A DNA stretch of 64,000 nt, taken from Corynebacterium sp. TAE3-ERU16. GTDB taxonomy: Bacteria > Actinomycetota > Actinomycetes > Mycobacteriales > Mycobacteriaceae. Below the pieces are notes generated by a model. The model did not search any database. It had not been told where the DNA came from and was given only the letters and a program-made list of their open reading frames with translations. Positions 27,721-52,886 of this stretch are shown in pieces (position 1 is the stretch's first letter; every line of letters begins with the position of its first letter). The position numbers and the translations under genes are program-made. The DNA lies in assembly GCF_019209935.1 (NCBI RefSeq), contig NZ_JAHUTN010000001.1, positions 310,001-374,000 of the forward strand, given 5' to 3'.

Positions 27721-30700
27721 CTACCGCTTTCCCGGGACTTTCCGGACGACACGCCGACGCCCGCGCTGTCCCCGCTTCGGATGTTCAGCGGTGGATCCGT
27801 CCCCGGCGGGCGTCTCCGCCGCGGCACTCCCGGCACCGTCATCGGCGGGGGTACCCGCCTCGGATGCCTGAGACCCGGCGGCGGGAGCGGCGATCCGGCG
27901 GACGATGCGACGTCGACCCCGGCGCAGCTTCTTCACCTGGACGCCACCGGCGGAAGATTCCGCGGGGGCCTCCGTCGCCGTGTCCTCCGCTGCGGGGGTT
28001 GCCGCGGCGGACGCCTCCGCACCACGTGCCTCGGCCTCGGCCTCGGCGATCTGCTTCTTCGTCAGACGCTTCGTGACGCGGCGCCGGCCACGACGGCCCA
28101 TCGTGCCGTCGTCCGTGGACTCGGCGTCCGGCTCCTGGGTCCGCGGGGCACCGGAGTTGTCCCCCGCGGGCACCTGATCATCCGATCCGTCGTCGTCACC
28201 GTCCGAGGCACCGTCGTCCGGGAGCGGACGCACGTTCTTCGCGATACGACGGCGTTGGCGGCGTGCCGCCGACGCGGAACGTTCCTCCCGTTCCTCACCG
28301 GAATCGTGTTCCTGATCCGGGCGACCGGCGGCCAGCTTCTCCGCGGAACCGCCGTCCCGGTGCACCTCCTCGATGTCCTCGTCCGCGAGTGGTCCCGAGA
28401 TGTAGTCGGACCGCTTCGGCGGGAAGTCCGACACGGAGTTTCCGCGGGTCCGGCGCTTCCGGCGCGGGGACGCCTCGAACGCGTCGAGCGCTTCGCGGTA
28501 GCTGTCCGCGGGCAGGTAGTCGGCACCCGACGGCTCGTCGGGGTCCTCCACGCCGGCACGCGCGACCGCCGCCGCGGCGATGGACTCGACACTGTTCGTC
28601 TCCTCCGCGCGGTCCTCCCGTTCGGAATGCTGTGCGGGTTCCCGGTCGGATTCCTCCCCGGAACCGGAACGCGCGTCGTCGGCGTGCGGTGCCCGGCTCG
28701 TACGCCGGCGGGTACGGCGCCCACGGCGCGGGCGGTTCTCCCGGTCCTCGTCGTGGGCGTCGTGCCCGTCCTGATCGTCCCGGGAGTCGTCTTCGACGGA
28801 GCTCTGCGACTCATCGGCGCCGTCATCCGTGCCGGAGCGCCGGGTGCCACGACGGCCGCGACGGGAGGAACCGGAGCGGTTGTTCCGCTTCCCGTCGTCC
28901 TCCTGCCCGTCGTCGGTGGCGACCACGGCGGCGGCGAGTTCCTCGATCGACGGGGACGCGGCGGACCGGTCGTCGTGATCGTCGTCGTGCTCGTCGGCGG
29001 GCTTCTCCTCGCTGTGATCCTTGTGCAGGGCCACGGCGGCGGGGTGCTCGGCCGGACGGTGCACCGGCTGCTCGTCGGAACCGCCGCTCCTGCGGCCCCG
29101 GCGGGATCGCGGCGGCTCATCCTCATGCTCGACGGGATCGGCGTGGATCACGAGACCACGGCCGTCACAGGTCTCACACTCGGTGGAGAAGGTCTCCAGG
29201 AGCCCGGTGCCGAGCTTCTTGCGGGTCATCTGGACCAGGCCCAGCGAGGTCACCTCGCTGACCTGGTGGCGGGTGCGGTCGCGGCCGAGCGCCTCGGTGA
29301 GGCGGCGCAGCACGAGATCCTGGTTCTCAGGGAGAACCATGTCGATGAAGTCGACGACGATCATCCCGCCGATGTCGCGCAGGCGCATCTGGCGGACGAT
29401 CTCCTCGGCCGCCTCCAGGTTGTTCTTGGTGACGGTCTCCTCGAGATTGCCGCCCGACCCGGTGAATTTCCCGGTGTTGACGTCGATGACGGTCATGGCC
29501 TCGGTGCGGTCGATGACCAGGGAGCCGCCGGACGGCAGCCACACCTTGCGGCTCAGCGCCTTCTGCAGCTGCTCGTCGATGCGGTAGTGCTCGAACACGT
29601 CGACGCCGCCGTTCGCGTTCGCGTCGTAGCGCTCCATGCGCTCCTCGAGATCGGGCGCGACGGAGCGGATGTAGGCGTTGACGGTGTTCCAGGACCGGTC
29701 GCCCTCGACGACGAGGGCGTCGAAGTCCTCGTTGAACAGGTCGCGGACGACCTTGACCAGCATGTCCGGCTCCTCGTAGAGGGTGACCGGCTTGGATCCC
29801 TTGGACTTCTTCTCCTTCTTGACCTTCTCCTGGATGTCCTCCCACAGGGAGTGCAGACGGTTGACGTCCGCCGCGATCTCCTTCTCGTGGACACCCTCGG
29901 CGGCGGTGCGGATGATCGCCCCACCGGTGGAGGGGACGACCTCCTTCAGGATCGCCTTGAGCCGCTTGCGTTCGGTTTCCGGGAGTTTCCGGGAGATACC
30001 GGCGCTCCGACCGCCGGGCACGTAGACGAGGAAACGGCCGGCGAGGGAGATCTGGGTGGTCAGCCGGGCACCCTTGTGCCCGACCGGGTCCTTGGTGATC
30101 TGGACGAGCACCTGGTCACCGGAGTGCAGCGCGTGCTCGATGCGGCGGGAACGGCCGCCGAGACCGGCGGACTTCCAGTCGACCTCGCCCGCGTAGAGCA
30201 CGCCGTTGCGGCCCTTGCCGATGTCGATGAAGGCGGCCTCCATGGAGGGCAGGACGTTCTGGACCCGCCCGAGGTAGATGTTGCCGACCATGGACGACTG
30301 GGTCTCTGAGGTGACGAAGTGCTCGACGAGCAGGTCGTCCTCGAGGACGCCGACCTGGGTGACGGAACCGGGGTGGTCCGTGCGGGCCTTCTCCCGCACG
30401 ACCATCGTGCGTTCGACGGACTCGCGGCGGGCGAGGAACTCGGCCTCGGAGACGACGTGCCGCTTCTTGCGGCCCTCCTCGCGCAGTTCGGTCCTCCGGC
30501 GACGCTGCGCCTCGAGACGCGTGGACCCCTTCAGGGCGACGGGCTCATCGGGGAGGTCCGCCGTGTCGTCGGTGTCATCGCTGTCGGCGGTGTTCTTCGA
30601 CGCCTTGTTGCGGTCGTTGCCGTTCTCGTTGTCGGCGTCGTCGCCGCCCCGGCCCCGGCCCTTGCCGCGCCGACCGCGGCGCTTACGCTTGCCGCCGCCC

Positions 30701-31800
30701 TCCGGGTCGTCGTCGGAGTCGTCTTCCCTGTCCACCGGCCCGTCGGTGTCCGCGGGTGTGGGCGGCAGGAACACCGGTGCGATGAACGCCGGGGTCTCCG
30801 GGGCCGGGGTGACCGCGGAGATGACGTCCTGAAGCAGCTCGGCCTCCTTCTCCTCCCGGACGGCCTCCTCGATGTCGATGGGCGTCGCGGAGGCGGTCTC
30901 CCCGTCGTCATCGGTGTCGTGCTCGCTGTCGGCGAGTTCGCGTTCGACCTTCTCCTCGATCTGGTGGATCTCGTTGGCGACGTTCTTCTCCACCCGCGCC
31001 CGGATCTTCTCGACAGGTTCGCCGTTGGGGGGCTCGGGGGCGTCCTCGGCGGGTACCGCCAGAACATCGAGCAGCCGGTTCGCTTCCTCGCCGCTCAGTG
31101 AGGACTGCGCGACCTTGACCAGGCCCATCTTGTCCAGGGTGAGGATGAGGTCCTTCGACGTCGTGGCGAGGAGCTTCGCCAGGACATGGACCCGGGTCTT
31201 CGGTCCCAGTCTGGACCGGTCGAACTCGGCGGCGAGCCGCGCGGTCGCGTCTGCGGGAACCTCGGCTGCGGCAGCGATCTCCGCCGGGGCGGCCACTGCT
31301 TCGGGTTTGCGGGTGACGCGACGCCGTGGCGCCTTCTTCGACGTCCCTGTGGGCTCTTGCCGGGTGTCCCCCGCGGCGTCGGCGGCCTTGCCCCGCTTCT
31401 TCGCGGGCGCCCGGGACCCGGTTTTCCTCCGGTCTCCGTCTGCGTCGCCGTCGTCGCCGGTTGTGGTCTTCTTCGTGGAGGTCGTCCTGGCCGCGGCGAT
31501 CTTGCCCGTCGTCTTCCGGGCGGCGCGCTTCTTCGCCGGTGCTTTCCCGCTACCGACTTCGGTTTCTCCGGCGGCGGGCGGGGTGTCGGCGGTGGAGTCC
31601 GCGGCCGACGCGGTGGCCCCACGGGTGCTCTTGCGTGCACGCTTGACCGGGGTCCCGGTTTCCTTCACTGGGGCCTCGCCGGTGTCGGCTTTCCCTGCCT
31701 CCGCCGGCTGTGCCCCGGCCTTCGTGGGGGCTGTCTTCTTCGTCGTCCGCTTCGCGGTCCGGCGGGTCTTCTTCGGTTCTGTACCGGTGGTCTCAGCCAC
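27721..31800 (-). CDS. rne: Ribonuclease E/G with long disordered arms
   Basis: 1359 residues. The catalytic core lies at about residues 470-900: S1-type RNA-binding segment (SMVGNIYLGRVQNVLPSM), DNase I-like GGMIVVDFIDMVLPENQ with metal-binding Asp, and the zinc-link CETCDGRG. About 470 residues before it and 460 after it are low-complexity, rich in Lys/Arg, Ala, Asp and Glu, the usual actinobacterial layout for RNA and degradosome contacts. It processes rRNA and starts mRNA decay. The GTG at 31800 has GAGGAG upstream. The 1019-residue plus-strand frame over it is a shadow. Confidence 0.95.
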   Translation of the reverse strand: MAETTGTEPKKTRRTAKRTTKKTAPTKAGAQPAEAGKADTGEAPVKETGTPVKRARKSTRGATASAADSTADTPPAAGETEVGSGKAPAKKRAARKTTGKIAAARTTSTKKTTTGDDGDADGDRRKTGSRAPAKKRGKAADAAGDTRQEPTGTSKKAPRRRVTRKPEAVAAPAEIAAAAEVPADATARLAAEFDRSRLGPKTRVHVLAKLLATTSKDLILTLDKMGLVKVAQSSLSGEEANRLLDVLAVPAEDAPEPPNGEPVEKIRARVEKNVANEIHQIEEKVERELADSEHDTDDDGETASATPIDIEEAVREEKEAELLQDVISAVTPAPETPAFIAPVFLPPTPADTDGPVDREDDSDDDPEGGGKRKRRGRRGKGRGRGGDDADNENGNDRNKASKNTADSDDTDDTADLPDEPVALKGSTRLEAQRRRRTELREEGRKKRHVVSEAEFLARRESVERTMVVREKARTDHPGSVTQVGVLEDDLLVEHFVTSETQSSMVGNIYLGRVQNVLPSMEAAFIDIGKGRNGVLYAGEVDWKSAGLGGRSRRIEHALHSGDQVLVQITKDPVGHKGARLTTQISLAGRFLVYVPGGRSAGISRKLPETERKRLKAILKEVVPSTGGAIIRTAAEGVHEKEIAADVNRLHSLWEDIQEKVKKEKKSKGSKPVTLYEEPDMLVKVVRDLFNEDFDALVVEGDRSWNTVNAYIRSVAPDLEERMERYDANANGGVDVFEHYRIDEQLQKALSRKVWLPSGGSLVIDRTEAMTVIDVNTGKFTGSGGNLEETVTKNNLEAAEEIVRQMRLRDIGGMIVVDFIDMVLPENQDLVLRRLTEALGRDRTRHQVSEVTSLGLVQMTRKKLGTGLLETFSTECETCDGRGLVIHADPVEHEDEPPRSRRGRRSGGSDEQPVHRPAEHPAAVALHKDHSEEKPADEHDDDHDDRSAASPSIEELAAAVVATDDGQEDDGKRNNRSGSSRRGRRGTRRSGTDDGADESQSSVEDDSRDDQDGHDAHDEDRENRPRRGRRTRRRTSRAPHADDARSGSGEESDREPAQHSEREDRAEETNSVESIAAAAVARAGVEDPDEPSGADYLPADSYREALDAFEASPRRKRRTRGNSVSDFPPKRSDYISGPLADEDIEEVHRDGGSAEKLAAGRPDQEHDSGEEREERSASAARRQRRRIAKNVRPLPDDGASDGDDDGSDDQVPAGDNSGAPRTQEPDAESTDDGTMGRRGRRRVTKRLTKKQIAEAEAEARGAEASAAATPAAEDTATEAPAESSAGGVQVKKLRRGRRRIVRRIAAPAAGSQASEAGTPADDGAGSAAAETPAGDGSTAEHPKRGQRGRRRVVRKVPGKR

Positions 31801-40396: not shown

Positions 40397-41671
<1,275 letters not shown>

Positions 41672-41812
41672 GGCCTTCGGGTAGTCACTCGCCTTCTTGA
41701 GCCGGGGCGCACGGGGTGACCGTGCACATTGGATCCGTCCGCCCCACTCTAGTACCCGGTCCCCGCCCCCATGTCCGAGGCGCGGCCGGGTATCCGTACG
41801 AAATATTCGTTG

Positions 41813-42445
41813 CTAGAGCTGCTTCGACAGCTTCCGGTAGTCGAAGACCTGGTCGATCAGCCCGTACTCGACGGCCTCGGGAGCGGTCAGGATCTTGTCC
41901 CGGTCGGTGTCGATGCGGATCTGTTCCGCGGAGCGGCCCGTGTGCTCGGCGAGGGTGGTCTCCATCAGGGTGCGCATCCGCTCGATCTCCCGGGCCTGGA
42001 TCTCCAGGTCGGAGACCTGGCCCTGCACGCCACCCGTCGCGGGCTGGTGGATCAGGATCCGGGCGTTCGGCAGGGCGGCGCGCTTACCGGGCGAACCGGC
42101 CGCGAGCAGCACCGCCGCGGCGGAGGCCGCCTGGCCCAGACACACGGTCTGCACGTCGGGGCGGACGTACTGCATCGTGTCGTAGATGGCCATCAGCGAG
42201 GTGAAGGAACCGCCCGGCGAGTTGATGTACATGGTGATGTCCCGGTCGGGGTCCTGCCCCTCGAGGACCAGGAGCTGCGCCATGATGTCATTCGCCGAGG
42301 CGTCGTCCACCTGCGTCCCGAGGAAGATGATGCGCTCCTCGAACAGTTTGTTGTAGGGGTTGGATTCCTTCGCGCCGTAGGCCGAGTGCTCCACGAAGCT
42401 GGGCAGCACATAGCGGGCGGAGGGCATCTGCATTCCGTTGCTCAT
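41813..42445 (-). CDS. clpP2: ATP-dependent Clp protease proteolytic subunit 2
   Basis: 210 residues. Serine protease triad in ClpP contexts: Ser in [15 protein letters not shown], His in [10 protein letters not shown] and Asp in the [10 protein letters not shown] segment. Actinobacteria carry two ClpPs that form a mixed tetradecamer; this paralogue is second in the pair, 39 bases after clpP1, and matches ClpP2. Confidence 0.95.
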
Positions 42446-43214: not shown

Positions 43215-43292
43215 CGCCGCGCGGGACGCTCACGCCGCTCTGTTCGCTGTCAGCTTTCCCGCGGGCCCCGCGGAGGCGTGGCCCGGTCGGAA

Positions 43293-43323
43293 AGAGCCCG
43301 GCCACCGGACGTGGTCGGGCTCT
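43293..43323 (-). terminator. Terminator of tig
   Basis: A 13-base stem (43293-43305 with 43311-43323) with one G-U pair and a five-base loop; on the minus strand it is followed by TTTCC. It lies 30 bases after the tig stop. Confidence 0.7.
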
Positions 43324-45620: not shown

Positions 45621-45665
45621 AAAAAGAAGGGCCCCGCCAGCATTCACGCTGGCGGGGGCCCTTCT
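45621..45665 (-). terminator. Terminator after the tRNA-Gly 3' end
   Basis: A 17-base arm starting at 45625 pairs with the arm ending at 45665, with one bulged base and a short loop. On the minus strand it ends in TTTTT (45625-45621), a classical intrinsic terminator. It begins four bases beyond the tRNA-Gly CCA end. Confidence 0.85.
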
Positions 45666-45668
45666 GTG

Positions 45669-45718
45669 TGGAGGGAACGACGGGAATCGAACCCGCGTCT
45701 TCAGCTTGGAAGTCTGAA
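45669..45718 (-). other. tRNA-Gly(UCC) 3' half, phage attachment site
   Basis: On the minus strand the sequence reads as a tRNA from the anticodon arm to the end: loop CTTCCAA (anticodon TCC), T arm GCGGG-TTCGATT-CCCGT, acceptor strand CGTTCCC, discriminator T and an encoded CCA. U73 and UCC indicate glycine. The matching acceptor 5' strand GGGAACG and a D arm are absent to the right, where the integrase begins; base 31 mismatches base 39. This is what integration within a tRNA gene leaves at the end that keeps only the 3' part; the rebuilt tRNA should lie beyond the right edge. Confidence 0.65.
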
Positions 45719-45842: not shown

Positions 45843-47066
45843 ATGCGCACCCGGGACGTCGGACTCGGATCCCTGTACAAGACGAAACGCGGATACTGGA
45901 CCGCCGCGTTCACAGTCGGCTACGACGGTAAGGGTCGTCAGGTCCGCCGCACCGTCTCCGCCAAGACGCAGTCGCGTGTTCTCGAGAAGCGTCGCCAGCT
46001 TCTCCGGGAGCTCGAGGAGAGTTCGACGGCGCCGGAGAAGATCACCGTCGAGACGTGGATGCAGCGGTGGCTGGACACGACGGCGTTCGAGAAGCTGAAC
46101 CCCCGCGTCCTGGCGGACTACCGGTCGAAGAACCGGCTCTACATCACCCCCACCCTCGGGTCCTACCGGCTCCGGGATCTCGGGGCCGACGAGGTCCGGG
46201 AGCTCCACGCCGCGGCACGTCAGGCCGGCCTGTCGGATCGCACCGTGCAGATCGTCCACACCGTGCTGTCGACGGCGCTGTCTGATGCCGTCCGTGAGGG
46301 GAAGATCGACCAGAACCCGTGCGAGCGTGTCGGCCGCCCGCGGGCCCGGTCCCGGCAGCGTCAGGCCCTGTCGGTGATGCACGCCAGGAAGGTGATCATC
46401 GCGGCGTTCGAGGAGGAGGATCCGCTCGCGTCGATGTGGGCGTCGTTCCTGTTCCTCGGGGCACGGAAGGCGGAGCTGATCGGGTTGGAGTGGTCCCGGC
46501 TGGATCTTGAGTTCGCTGCGGTGGATCTGTCGTGGCAGGTGCAGTCGATCCCGTGGGCGCATGGCGAGGAGTGCGGGTGTGAGGCTGAGGTGAGGGCCGC
46601 GCGGTGCCCCAAGCGGAGGCACGCGGTGCCGCCGGGGTTCGAGTACCGGGAGCTGTATCGGTCGCGGTTGTGGACCCGGCCGAAGACGGTGACGTCGATG
46701 CGTGTGACGCCGATTCCGGCGCCGCTGGTCGCCGCGTTGACGGTCTACCGGGAGAAGCATGTGCCGAACCCGCACGGGCTGGTGTGGGCCGGGGCAGACG
46801 GCAGGCCGTTGATGGAGCGGGCGGTGTCCGCCGGGTGGCGTGAGGCGTGCCGCCGGGCCGGGGCCCCGCCGGTGGATCTGCACTCGGCGCGTCACACGAC
46901 GGCGACGCTCCTCCTCGAGTCTCAGGTGCCGCCGGAGGTCATCTCGCAGATCCTCGGGCACTCGTCGGTGATCTCGACGCGCCCGTATCTGCATGTGGGG
47001 CAGGCTCAGGCGACCGCGGCGATGGACGCCCTGGGGTCGTACCTCAGACTCCCCGGCCTTGAGTGA
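45843..47066 (+). CDS. int: Tyrosine recombinase, phage integrase
   Basis: 407 residues. An N-terminal AP2-like arm-binding part (SLYKTKRGYWTAAFTVGYDG) is followed by a SAM-like core-binding domain (residues about 70-160) and a catalytic domain with Arg in LGARKAEL, HSARHTTAT (H-x-x-R), LGHSS and the nucleophile Tyr in RPYLHVG. A Cys/His-rich insert (AHGEECGCEAEV, then RCPKRRH) inside the catalytic domain may bind zinc and is seen in some actinophage integrases. It sits 120 bases from the tRNA-Gly fragment. The ATG has AGGAGGG upstream. Confidence 0.95.
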   Translation: MRTRDVGLGSLYKTKRGYWTAAFTVGYDGKGRQVRRTVSAKTQSRVLEKRRQLLRELEESSTAPEKITVETWMQRWLDTTAFEKLNPRVLADYRSKNRLYITPTLGSYRLRDLGADEVRELHAAARQAGLSDRTVQIVHTVLSTALSDAVREGKIDQNPCERVGRPRARSRQRQALSVMHARKVIIAAFEEEDPLASMWASFLFLGARKAELIGLEWSRLDLEFAAVDLSWQVQSIPWAHGEECGCEAEVRAARCPKRRHAVPPGFEYRELYRSRLWTRPKTVTSMRVTPIPAPLVAALTVYREKHVPNPHGLVWAGADGRPLMERAVSAGWREACRRAGAPPVDLHSARHTTATLLLESQVPPEVISQILGHSSVISTRPYLHVGQAQATAAMDALGSYLRLPGLE

Positions 47067-47579: not shown

Positions 47580-47801
47580 ATGGCACGAGCTGCAACTCTC
47601 GCCCCGCCGCCTATCGCGTACAGCGCTGCAGAAGCCGCGAAGGCCCTCGGAATCAGCCGAAACTACGTCTACCAGCTGCTTCGGGCCGGTGAGATCCAGT
47701 CGAAGCGCTCCGGCAAGCGGATCATCATCACCGTCGATGCCCTCCGCGAGTATGTCGAACGCCTCCCCGATTACGTGGACACCGTCGAACTCGCCAGCTA
47801 G
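47580..47801 (+). CDS. Excisionase-family / MerR-like HTH protein
   Basis: 73 residues. After a short Ala/Pro tail, YSAAEAAKALGISRNYVYQL and SGKRIIITVDALREYVERL form the winged HTH typical of small excisionase-type proteins, which bend DNA with integrase or regulate early genes. It is the first gene rightward from the repressor, so it could act as Xis or as a Cro-like switch; the sequence does not decide. Confidence 0.8.
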   Translation: MARAATLAPPPIAYSAAEAAKALGISRNYVYQLLRAGEIQSKRSGKRIIITVDALREYVERLPDYVDTVELAS

Positions 47802-51519: not shown

Positions 51520-51882
51520 ATGACCACCATCACGAAGTTCACCATCGAACAGGTGAACGAGCGCCTGGACAAGATCGTCGCCCAGTTCGCCGACGTCACC
51601 ACCAAGCCCGCATACGACGACAGCGCTGAACTCCGCACCTTCGACGATGGGGATACAAGGATCTGCGGATACCGCAATCGCGTCGCAGGAGACATGTACA
51701 TCTCCGTTTCAATCCACCAGAAGCCCGCCGACGCCACCCACGACAGCGCTCAGGTGACCATCTACCGGGTGGACGATGAGGGGCATTTTCATCGCGGCCT
51801 CGAGGGCTGGACCGAGGACGAGATCTTCCCTGATCGGCATCTCGCTGCCCTCAAAGCGTTCATCACTGGGGGTGCGAAGTGA
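51520..51882 (+). CDS. Small phage protein of unknown function
   Basis: 120 residues starting MTTITKFTIEQVNERLDKIV. It is acidic overall, with alternating strands (MYISVSIHQKPADATHDSAQ, VTIYRVDDEGHFH). ATG 51520 follows the leader hairpin and strong promoter, so it is the first gene of its transcript and may be expressed early. No family was recognised. Confidence 0.6.
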   Translation: MTTITKFTIEQVNERLDKIVAQFADVTTKPAYDDSAELRTFDDGDTRICGYRNRVAGDMYISVSIHQKPADATHDSAQVTIYRVDDEGHFHRGLEGWTEDEIFPDRHLAALKAFITGGAK

Positions 51883-52097
51883 GCCGCCACCGCCGCCCCG
51901 CAGCACAGGACACCCCGTTCGAGATGTGGACCCTCGTGGTCATCCTCGCGGCCCTCGCGGTCCTGATCCCCACCGCCGTCATATTCGGCCTCGCGAACAC
52001 CCTCGGGTGGGTCCCGGCGATCCTGATCCCCGCCGCATCCGCGGCAGTTGTCCTGGCGCCGCGCTACATACACCGCCCCCGCCACGCCGCCGAATAG
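51879..52097 (+). CDS. Small two-segment membrane protein
   Basis: 72 residues with two hydrophobic segments (MWTLVVILAALAVLIPTAV and VPAILIPAASAAVVLAP) and basic ends. GTG start overlaps the preceding stop as GTGA. Small membrane proteins in early phage regions sometimes act in superinfection exclusion; nothing in the sequence proves it. Confidence 0.6.
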   Translation: MSRHRRPAAQDTPFEMWTLVVILAALAVLIPTAVIFGLANTLGWVPAILIPAASAAVVLAPRYIHRPRHAAE

Positions 52098-52101
52098 GCA
52101 G

Positions 52102-52146
52102 CCCGCACCGGTAGCCCCGGGGTTCAACTCCCCGGGCGGGCACCAG
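52102..52146 (+). ncRNA. tRNA-like minihelix 1 (acceptor stem + T arm + CCA)
   Basis: GCCCGC (52102-52107) pairs with GCGGGC (52137-52142). Between them lie an 11-base linker and a T arm, CGGGG-TTCAACT-CCCCG (52119-52135), with the canonical T-loop bases. A discriminator A and an encoded CCA (52144-52146) follow. D and anticodon arms are absent. A small hairpin GCCC-TCAC-GGGC starts at the next base. The 73-base position where a full tRNA would begin has no matching acceptor strand. Confidence 0.6.
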
Positions 52147-52324
52147 CCCTCACGGGCCCAGATGTTTGAGAACTCGATAGCGATGAAGCCTCCACCGGAG
52201 GATATTTACCCACCCTGACCTGCACGGTCGGGGCAAAACCGGGGCCGCGTTGACTTGTCCGCGGACCGACGTATGGGGCGCTGGAACCGCCGAACAGGCG
52301 AGGGAACGAAACGGTGGAGCACGA

Positions 52325-52373
52325 GGGCACGTCTGGCGACATTGCCGGGGTTCGATTCCCCGGGTGCCCACCA
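52325..52373 (+). ncRNA. tRNA-like minihelix 2 (acceptor stem + T arm + CCA)
   Basis: GGGCAC (52325-52330) pairs with GTGCCC (52364-52369); a 15-base linker and the T arm CGGGG-TTCGATT-CCCCG (52346-52362) lie between. Discriminator A and CCA (52371-52373) follow, then a hairpin GGCCC-ACA-GGGCC. Compared with minihelix 1 the T stem is identical and the acceptor stem is changed on both sides so that it still pairs. Both lie in a 333-base stretch without a protein gene. Confidence 0.6.
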
Positions 52374-52397
52374 GGCCCACAGGGCCACCGACCACTA

Positions 52398-52427
52398 GCG
52401 CCTGCAAGCGCACGACAGAAAGGGACC
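52398..52427 (+). promoter_or_regulatory. Leader hairpin with CTGCAA loop plus AGAAAGGGACC
   Basis: GCGC-CTGCAA-GCGC (52398-52411), then AGAAAGGGACC (52417-52427) and ATG 52431. It is the third copy with the same hexaloop on a different stem. Confidence 0.55.
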
Positions 52428-52430
52428 GAT

Positions 52431-52886
52431 ATGAAGCACACAACGGAATCGCTGTTAGACGCGATACGCGAGCAGTTCCCCGGGGGCCGAATCAGGTACT
52501 CGGTTGACCCGTTCACCGACGACAAGGTTCTCACGGGCACGACGTTCATAAACGCGGTCAGGCACGACGAGCGGGCGCTGCACTACAGCACCCACACACG
52601 CGAGTTTGATCTGGGTGACGGCCGACGGCTTGCCGTCCATGTTGGGCTCGCATCTTCTGACGACGACTGGGATGAAATCGTCGCACGTCAGATCAGGGTT
52701 TACCTGATGACCATGGAGGACGGCAGGCAGCGCACTGACCGCTGGATCTACGGGAACCCGGCCCGTCCGTTGACCATCGCGGATGTGAGAAAAGCGGTCG
52801 AACGAATCATCGAGATTCTCGAGAACCCCACCCCCGACTCCGAGGACACCGAGAATGGGCACGCCCCTGTGGGAGGAACCCGCTGA
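52431..52886 (+). CDS. Phage protein of unknown function
   Basis: 151 residues, acidic at the C terminus (ENPTPDSEDTENGH). It shows mixed strands and helices with no recognised motif. ATG 52431 is set by the leader module; the in-frame extension to 52314 would run through tRNA-like element 2 and is rejected. The stop overlaps the next ATG by one base (TGATG). Confidence 0.6.
   Translation: MKHTTESLLDAIREQFPGGRIRYSVDPFTDDKVLTGTTFINAVRHDERALHYSTHTREFDLGDGRRLAVHVGLASSDDDWDEIVARQIRVYLMTMEDGRQRTDRWIYGNPARPLTIADVRKAVERIIEILENPTPDSEDTENGHAPVGGTR

Follow-up and report, generated by a model that had tools for sequence, protein, structure and literature searches.

E1 and E2 are two short tRNA-like elements, referred to below as mini-tRNAs, within a prophage that takes up about 50 kb of contig C1 and is integrated at a tRNA-Gly gene. 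Positions refer to the analysed stretch of 64,000 nucleotides (the window) unless a contig, phage or locus is named. A 56-base repeat of 94.6% identity is shared by positions 45662-45717 and the overlap with the intact tRNA-Gly (TCC) gene at C1:405894-405968, and the partial copy in the window, 6.4 kb from E1, is the left attachment site of the prophage. A tyrosine integrase gene (45843-47066) adjoins this copy and is followed by genes for replication proteins and a DnaB helicase and, past the end of the window, by terminase, portal and head genes. tRNA-Pro was rejected as the integration site in favour of tRNA-Gly, as no repeat of tRNA-Pro was found.

The region between the flanking ORFs (Table 1), 333 bases described as free of protein genes by the first-pass annotation, indeed holds no identifiable gene from 52098 to 52430 apart from an ORF of 18 codons (52162-52218). 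E2 precedes the 151-aa ORF, for which no family was found in PHROGs, Pfam or NCBIfam. No GC stem with a T run behind it, as expected of an intrinsic terminator, was detected in 51800-52600, nor was a third element in C1:374001-412000.

Table 1. Features of the region containing E1 and E2 (window positions)
Feature	Position	Strand	Sequence or basis
TAG stop of the ORF of a 72-aa putative membrane protein (51879-52097)	52095..52097	+	three bases before E1
E1, class I mini-tRNA	52101..52141	+	acceptor GCCCGC/GCGGGC; D-loop-like linker ACCGGTAGCC; T arm CCGGGG-TTCAACT-CCCCGG
E1 discriminator A and encoded CCA	52142..52145	+	read from sequence
Hairpin directly 3' of E1	52146..52157	+	GCCC-TCAC-GGGC; sequence, family trend
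GATGTTTGAGAACTCGATAG, as in rRNA-operon leaders of the genus	52161..52180	+	20-base identity
E2, class II mini-tRNA	52325..52369	+	acceptor GGGCAC/GTGCCC; T arm CCGGGG-TTCGATT-CCCCGG; descriptor scan and folding
E2 discriminator A and encoded CCA	52370..52373	+	read from sequence
Hairpin directly 3' of E2	52374..52386	+	GGCCC-ACA-GGGCC; read from sequence
Next protein ORF, 151 aa	52431..52886	+	AAAGGGA upstream of its ATG

In both elements, a 6-bp acceptor-like stem stacks on a T arm of 6 bp whose loop conforms to TTCRANY; including the terminal A-CCA, they span 52101-52145 and 52325-52373. The first-pass annotation had reported six-pair acceptor stems, a discriminator A and an encoded CCA in both, identical T stems beside acceptor stems that differ and still pair, and a C/G hairpin right after each element; all of this agrees with the sequence, save that E1 had been started at 52102, one base late. 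It had also denied the elements both a D arm and an anticodon arm. The anticodon arm is absent from both, but there are traces of a D arm: the linker of E1 is a D-loop strand, and that of E2, GTCTGGCGACATTG, contains a mini D hairpin (GTC-TGGC-GAC) followed by the linker ATTG. Neither element qualifies as a tRNA gene in the sense of a cloverleaf with an anticodon arm recognized by RF00005 or ARAGORN. ARAGORN calls no tRNA at E1 or E2 and no tmRNA anywhere in the window, and the sole match of Rfam in the window at gathering threshold is tRNA-Pro, with nothing at E1 or E2. A 95-base tRNA-Asp called by ARAGORN at 40450-40544 is unsupported by Rfam and is probably a false call.

When the 64-kb window was scanned with a structural descriptor (a T arm with a TTCRANY loop and a stacked acceptor whose 5' strand lies close upstream), E1 and E2 were the sole passes. 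Twenty first-order Markov shuffles of the window yielded no pass at a score of at least 6.5 and a mean of 0.05-0.1 at lower thresholds. Folding z-scores are -2.11 for E1 and -2.55 for E2. The predicted fold of E2 is the one described here, while minimum-energy prediction for E1 prefers a rival pairing, so that the fold of E1 rests on comparison with its family. E1 scores 30.1 bits against a model built without it (R1) and 48.7 bits against a second model (R2) with E1 among its 25 sequences; on E2, these class I models match the T arm alone.

Between the two elements, and overlapping the 18-codon ORF, lies GATGTTTGAGAACTCGATAG, which we take to be boxA-like. Identical 20-mers occur on contigs C5, C12 and C17 of the same genome and in another genome of the genus (G041:C8), where the copy precedes a 16S rRNA gene by about 400 bases. 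Words of 11 bases similar to GATGTTTGAGAACTCGATAG were seen in three loci: about 60-75 nt after an element in L259, and at a distance of 2.3 kb upstream of elements in L229 and L252. The occurrence of such sequences near elements hints that antitermination of a long operon may be involved.

Relatives in phages and bacterial genomes

A distant DNA search revealed the first relatives, elements of the same architecture in the Gordonia phages Aleemily and ObLaDi. Aleemily carries eight, all intergenic and all in the right arm, with none in its first 45 kb. One of them matches, over 45-46 bases and with 95.6-95.7% identity, sequences in the Streptomyces phages Yosif, Joe and phiScoe55, for which no other match to the Aleemily query is listed outside the element. 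BLAST with the Aleemily element region (E up to 1) returned 592 places, at least one of which is a true tRNA, in 154 records (113 Streptomyces, 29 Mycobacterium, 6 Gordonia, 2 Microbacterium, 2 Halorubrum, 1 Arthrobacter and 1 unnamed). Seven places fall in Streptomyces phage Kamino, reported to be without tRNA genes (PMC11536984).

Further copies in other phages were looked for and found. The structural scan of 3.12 Mb of loci, from which 25 raw matches overlapping ARAGORN tRNAs were removed, gave 523 matches, 312 of them distinct, in 144 loci, and one 3.1-Mb Markov shuffle gave none. The 312 elements reduce to 145 non-redundant ones (85% identity, flanks present) and to 298 with distinct downstream sequence. 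The patterns used in the contig scans prescribed some linker, loop or acceptor bases; the loci are therefore not a random sample, and the presence of GG in 310 of the 312 linkers is an inflated figure. In the stretches scanned, the descriptor counts are 7 for Joe, 8 for Yosif, 7 for Sujidade, 8 for Predator and 13 each for Nilo and Papyrus. The family is well supported by this material.

Several gaps negative for the descriptor hold variants that can be recognized by eye: Predator (L182) at 41748-41850, with the T loop TGCGAGT; Yosif (L180) at 45888-45975, with the loop TTCGAGG and a compensating CC in the linker; and Sujidade (L183) at 43225-43309, with the loop TGCAAGG. On the minus strand of Joe (L186), the descriptor also missed an eighth mini-tRNA at about 47635-47680, in which one base bulges out where T stem and acceptor meet. 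The stretch from Mycobacterium phage Papyrus (L185) contains a GOLLD RNA at 28837-29296 (Rfam, 190 bits). In phiC31, a phage with unusual intergenic terminators, the descriptor scan found no member, its sole match overlapping an annotated tRNA-Thr. Near 31490 (L181), in the gap between genes 13 and 14, a T-arm-like hairpin without a matching acceptor 5' strand stands beside a GCGAAAGC hairpin and is possibly a remote or decayed relative.

Among bacterial genomes, 21 of 151 from the same genus (its own included) match model R1 at E 0.1, a set that was inspected in part. Of 396 genomes of the phylum, two matched in a model search restricted to 16 candidates per genome and to E 0.001, a cut-off that E1 itself (E 0.006) would miss. 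With the 361-base region as query, 101 genomes yielded mostly noise. A single pattern run on a genome collection retrieved ten stretches, assigned by title to actinomycetes (6), Bacteroidota (3) and Gemmatimonadota (1), some of these titles denoting metagenome bins that are possibly misassigned; nine of the ten pass the descriptor at a loose setting. Locus L350, binned as Gemmatimonadota, contains four loose-setting passes within 2.1 kb (269-2324). The mini-tRNA family may thus reach beyond actinobacteria.

Conserved pairing, linker and acceptor end

Pairing was required by the scan, and percentages of paired stem cells are for this reason no evidence by themselves. To remove this circularity, elements were also selected by motif without any pairing rule. 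In the 42 distinct elements obtained in this way from seven phages, the 5-bp acceptor is perfect in 37 and the outer T stem in 41, compared with about 6 and about 7 after exchange of the 3' halves; of the five acceptor exceptions, three differ in stem length and one carries a one-base bulge. Chance pairing is rejected by these figures and by the near absence of matches in shuffled sequence. The same selection over all loci (85% clusters), with one fixed geometry imposed, gave 58 perfect acceptors and 92 perfect T stems among 110. The combination of an acceptor stem and a stacked T arm with its TTCRANY loop, demanded by the scan, is therefore confirmed independently of it. An ungapped alignment of 39 elements, for which pairing had been required, shows changes on both sides at 10 of 11 stem pairs and 135 cells with two-sided change against 34.1 in shuffled controls (none of 500 as high). 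A second set of 25 elements gave 87 such cells against 23.3. Of 145 elements, 126 have an acceptor/T-arm stack of 11 or 12 bp.

The linker provides further evidence, as its pairs covary and were required by no scan. In class I it reads A-N-Y-G-G-Y-A and resembles the D loop of tRNA, whose GG docks on the T loop. Both pairings were counted in 39 non-redundant elements from outside the phages of the first alignment and outside the linker patterns. Linker positions k1 and k7 pair in 34 of these (against a mean of 18.9 and a maximum of 27 after shuffling), and k8-k9 pair with T-loop bases 59-60 in 25 (mean 14.4, maximum 21). Among linkers of 10 bases, pairing to bases 59-60 (20/33) is not clearly above shuffled sequence (18.1, maximum 21). 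In the Yosif gap missed by the descriptor, loop position 60 is G and k8 is C, as predicted. In class II, a D hairpin is found in 24 of 41 linkers of at least 12 bases, some of the 24 being near copies, compared with 29% after shuffling, and seven class II elements folded singly, E2 included, adopt similar Y shapes. Selection on RNA structure, which the first-pass annotation had proposed from the two elements, is strongly supported by the pairing-free selection and by these linker pairs.

The acceptor end is far more variable. A CCA is encoded in 5 of the 145 non-redundant elements and is not a family trait although E1 and E2 have it, which makes a general CCA-end or aminoacylation role unlikely. 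Similarly, the 145 elements display 71 distinct acceptor 5-mers and a G3-U70 pair in three cases, so that no single synthetase identity is kept. The conserved parts are those read by enzymes that recognize the general shape of tRNA, namely the elbow, the stacked helix and, in most cases, G1 and A73. Two further candidate signals were discarded: a strong avoidance of C75 is only mild (20/145 against a 25% background), and the apparent avoidance of pairing between base -1 and base 73 is an artefact of the scan.

Placement between genes and possible roles

In the seven annotated phages, every one of the 64 elements has the same orientation as the two genes that flank it. Only two elements are contained in a CDS; of the other 62, four overlap one by 1-22 nt. 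These 64 are not independent, for the placement set consists of genome parts in which Nilo and Papyrus are close relatives and the three Streptomyces phages are more distantly related. The median element starts 10 nt past the upstream stop codon (7-9 nt in 25 of 64) and lies 44 nt before the next start. Conversely, there are 70 gaps of 75-160 nt between co-directional genes, of which 51 hold an element, and about three of the other 19 hold variants by eye. Inspection by eye shows that the element is mostly followed by A-C-N, often by a hairpin, and then by a purine-rich ribosome-binding site and a start codon, an arrangement that leaves little room for a promoter. A stem of at least five pairs occurs within 10 nt downstream in 175 of 298 elements, compared with 60.9 in shuffled sequence and 134 in the upstream control; in 147 of these 175 elements the stem begins at positions 75-78. 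For six-pair stems the counts are 141 downstream and 75 upstream. Four-pair stems show no excess over the upstream control (218 against 224 of 298, with 80 of 298 lacking a four-pair hairpin nearby), so that the argument for the hairpin is carried by its position and by the longer stems.

Placement between genes together with a second hairpin suggests one cut just past the element. A mini-tRNA within a polycistronic transcript would be taken for a tRNA precursor, and a host RNase Z-type nuclease would cut on its 3' side, immediately past the discriminator or a few bases later. Both mRNAs would be protected through this single cut, the upstream one ending in a stable tRNA-like structure soon past its stop codon and the downstream one often starting a few bases before a hairpin, ahead of its ribosome-binding site and start codon. 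We estimate at roughly 0.45, slightly below even odds, the probability that the elements punctuate the transcript between genes and are cut immediately downstream by an RNase Z-type tRNA 3'-processing enzyme. What the sequences show is the family with its fold and covariation, its strand and placement, and the trend towards a hairpin; transcription of the mini-tRNAs, the cut, the identity of the cutting enzyme and the stabilization of the messages are points that we infer. Several observations speak against this model: tRNAs have a 12-bp acceptor/T stack and 65 of the 145 elements one of 11 bp, E2 is not close behind the stop codon of any gene, 19 of the 70 suitable gaps gave no element, and 80 of 298 elements have no four-pair hairpin nearby. 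Moreover, an encoded CCA blocks many bacterial RNase Z enzymes; at E1 and E2, the cut would therefore have to fall after the CCA or be made by another enzyme.

A broader proposal, tentative and with the odds somewhat against it, is that phages, actinobacterial above all but probably also those of other phyla, possess a dedicated anticodon-less mini-tRNA at each copy of which the maturation enzymes of the host would cut the early operon, yielding mRNAs of one gene each whose 3' end is tRNA-like and whose 5' end is shielded by a hairpin. The rRNA-leader sequence next to E1 and E2 would add antitermination in this prophage, and the operon would be built like a stable-RNA operon.

The first-pass annotation had listed CCA-adding enzyme, RNase P, RNase Z, EF-Tu or a synthetase as possible partners. 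RNase Z and RNase P are still the best candidates, and roles for the CCA end or aminoacylation have lost ground given the rarity of CCA. An acceptor and a T arm form a minimal substrate of RNase P, which could cut on the 5' side, in the manner of mitochondrial tRNA punctuation, and possibly, with a 3' cut, free an RNA of 40-50 nt. In favour of this, the first base is G in 277 of 312 elements, the first pair G-C in 111 of 145, and the 5' edge of the element lies a few bases past the stop codon. Bacterial RNase P, however, pairs with C74-C75, which is mostly incomplete here, and a 5' cut would give the separate hairpin no role and leave the upstream mRNA with a bare 3' end; punctuation by RNase P is in our opinion unlikely.

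We consider it equally doubtful that the elements act uncut in intact mRNA, as exonuclease blocks or as translation couplers operating through stalling, reinitiation or tRNA mimicry. In 81 of 145 cases, 6-10 nt separate the element from the end of the nearest stop triplet in any frame, a tight spacing that could bring the acceptor strand into contact with a ribosome at termination. Nevertheless, a plain hairpin would be enough against exonucleases, the D-loop GG and the pairing of linker and T loop would be left unexplained, and the downstream genes have, by eye, their own ribosome-binding sites.

Decoys or sponges for host enzymes acting on tRNA, or for defence toxins that attack the acceptor end, would profit from several copies per phage, from a retained elbow and acceptor and from the lack of an anticodon to cut. 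Yet a free decoy would need neither a co-directional intergenic position nor the coding strand, which all 64 elements occupy, and CCA is rarely encoded. The free decoys or replication primers suggested by the first-pass annotation fit this placement in cis less well than processing does, and we hold a decoy function to be improbable.

DNA-level functions are very improbable. Intergenic stoperators are described in R4-like Streptomyces phages (PMC10276819), but the sequence of the elements varies while their pairing is kept, as would not be expected of a protein-binding site. Joe has a separate 13-base stoperator-like repeat, TGTGACAGTGTGA, at 19 places with up to two mismatches (e.g., L186 positions 27209, 43116, 45631 and 47693); some copies adjoin mini-tRNAs, and the repeat is probably an R4-type stoperator. 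Transcription terminators are opposed by the lack of a terminator-like site in 51800-52600 and by the little promoter room that follows the elements.

Least probable of all is an origin as tRNA fragments left by mobile-element integration, documented as a source of false tRNA calls (PMC9897764), or as decayed phage tRNA genes: the prophage did integrate at a tRNA and is bounded by a 56-base duplication of tRNA-Gly, but the real attachment copy lies elsewhere, the 3' 25-mers of E1 and E2 are unlike all 16 other genomic places with a T-arm-plus-CCA pattern, ARAGORN found in the window no complete tRNA at the place of E1 and E2 such as decay would need, and decay gives neither compensatory changes nor an intergenic register shared by phages that infect different hosts.

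Novelty and comparison with known systems

Rfam 15 at gathering threshold matched no family to the elements in the window or in 109,957 bases of related phage loci, where GOLLD was the sole match. No earlier description was encountered in the open literature searched, which included papers on Streptomyces phages and mycobacteriophages and extended to little of the subscription literature. Mini-tRNAs are thus apparently a new RNA family of the kind of tRNA-like structures, with priority not certain, and within the literature searched their setting between phage genes is new for such structures. A structured RNA without an Rfam match at gathering threshold is present in up to 13 copies per phage stretch in Streptomyces, Mycobacterium and Gordonia phages and in Corynebacterium genomes. 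If it serves as processing punctuation, it would explain how single-gene messages arise from long early phage operons through host tRNA enzymes, and would offer a small part for splitting operons. The mini-tRNA is also a natural minimal tRNA elbow with which the needs of tRNA enzymes can be studied.

Actinophage stoperators are likewise repeated intergenic elements of the same Streptomyces phage group but are DNA sites bound by a repressor (PMC10276819), whereas mini-tRNAs conserve RNA pairing. With tRNA (RF00005), mini-tRNAs share the acceptor stacked on a T arm, the TTCRANY loop, the D-loop GG, mostly A73 and the G1-C72 pair; unlike tRNA, they have no anticodon arm, measure 40-50 nt, rarely encode CCA, remain unmatched by Rfam and ARAGORN at E1 and E2, and in many cases have an extra pairing of the linker to T-loop bases 59-60. 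The tRNA-like domain of tmRNA also combines an acceptor, a T arm and a D loop without an anticodon arm. It was rejected as an identity for these elements, which have a G-U third pair in 3 of 145 cases, lack a visible mRNA-like domain and occur in many intergenic copies per phage, no tmRNA being called by ARAGORN in the window. Bacterial Y RNA (YrlA) brings mimicry of the tRNA elbow to noncoding RNAs of bacteria and phages through a tRNA-like module with a Ro-binding stem and no acceptor stem; mini-tRNAs differ in having one, the computational comparison being that of the Rfam scans. The 3' tRNA-like structures of plant viruses are viral mimics of acceptor and T arm, here with a proposed role in 3'-end protection, but mini-tRNAs reside in dsDNA phages, are internal and repeated, and conserve no aminoacylation identity. 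Finally, in mitochondrial tRNA punctuation and in t-elements, tRNA or tRNA-like units stand between the genes of one transcript, as do the cutting marks proposed here; mini-tRNAs differ from these in belonging to phages, in being unable to decode and in being often followed by a second hairpin.
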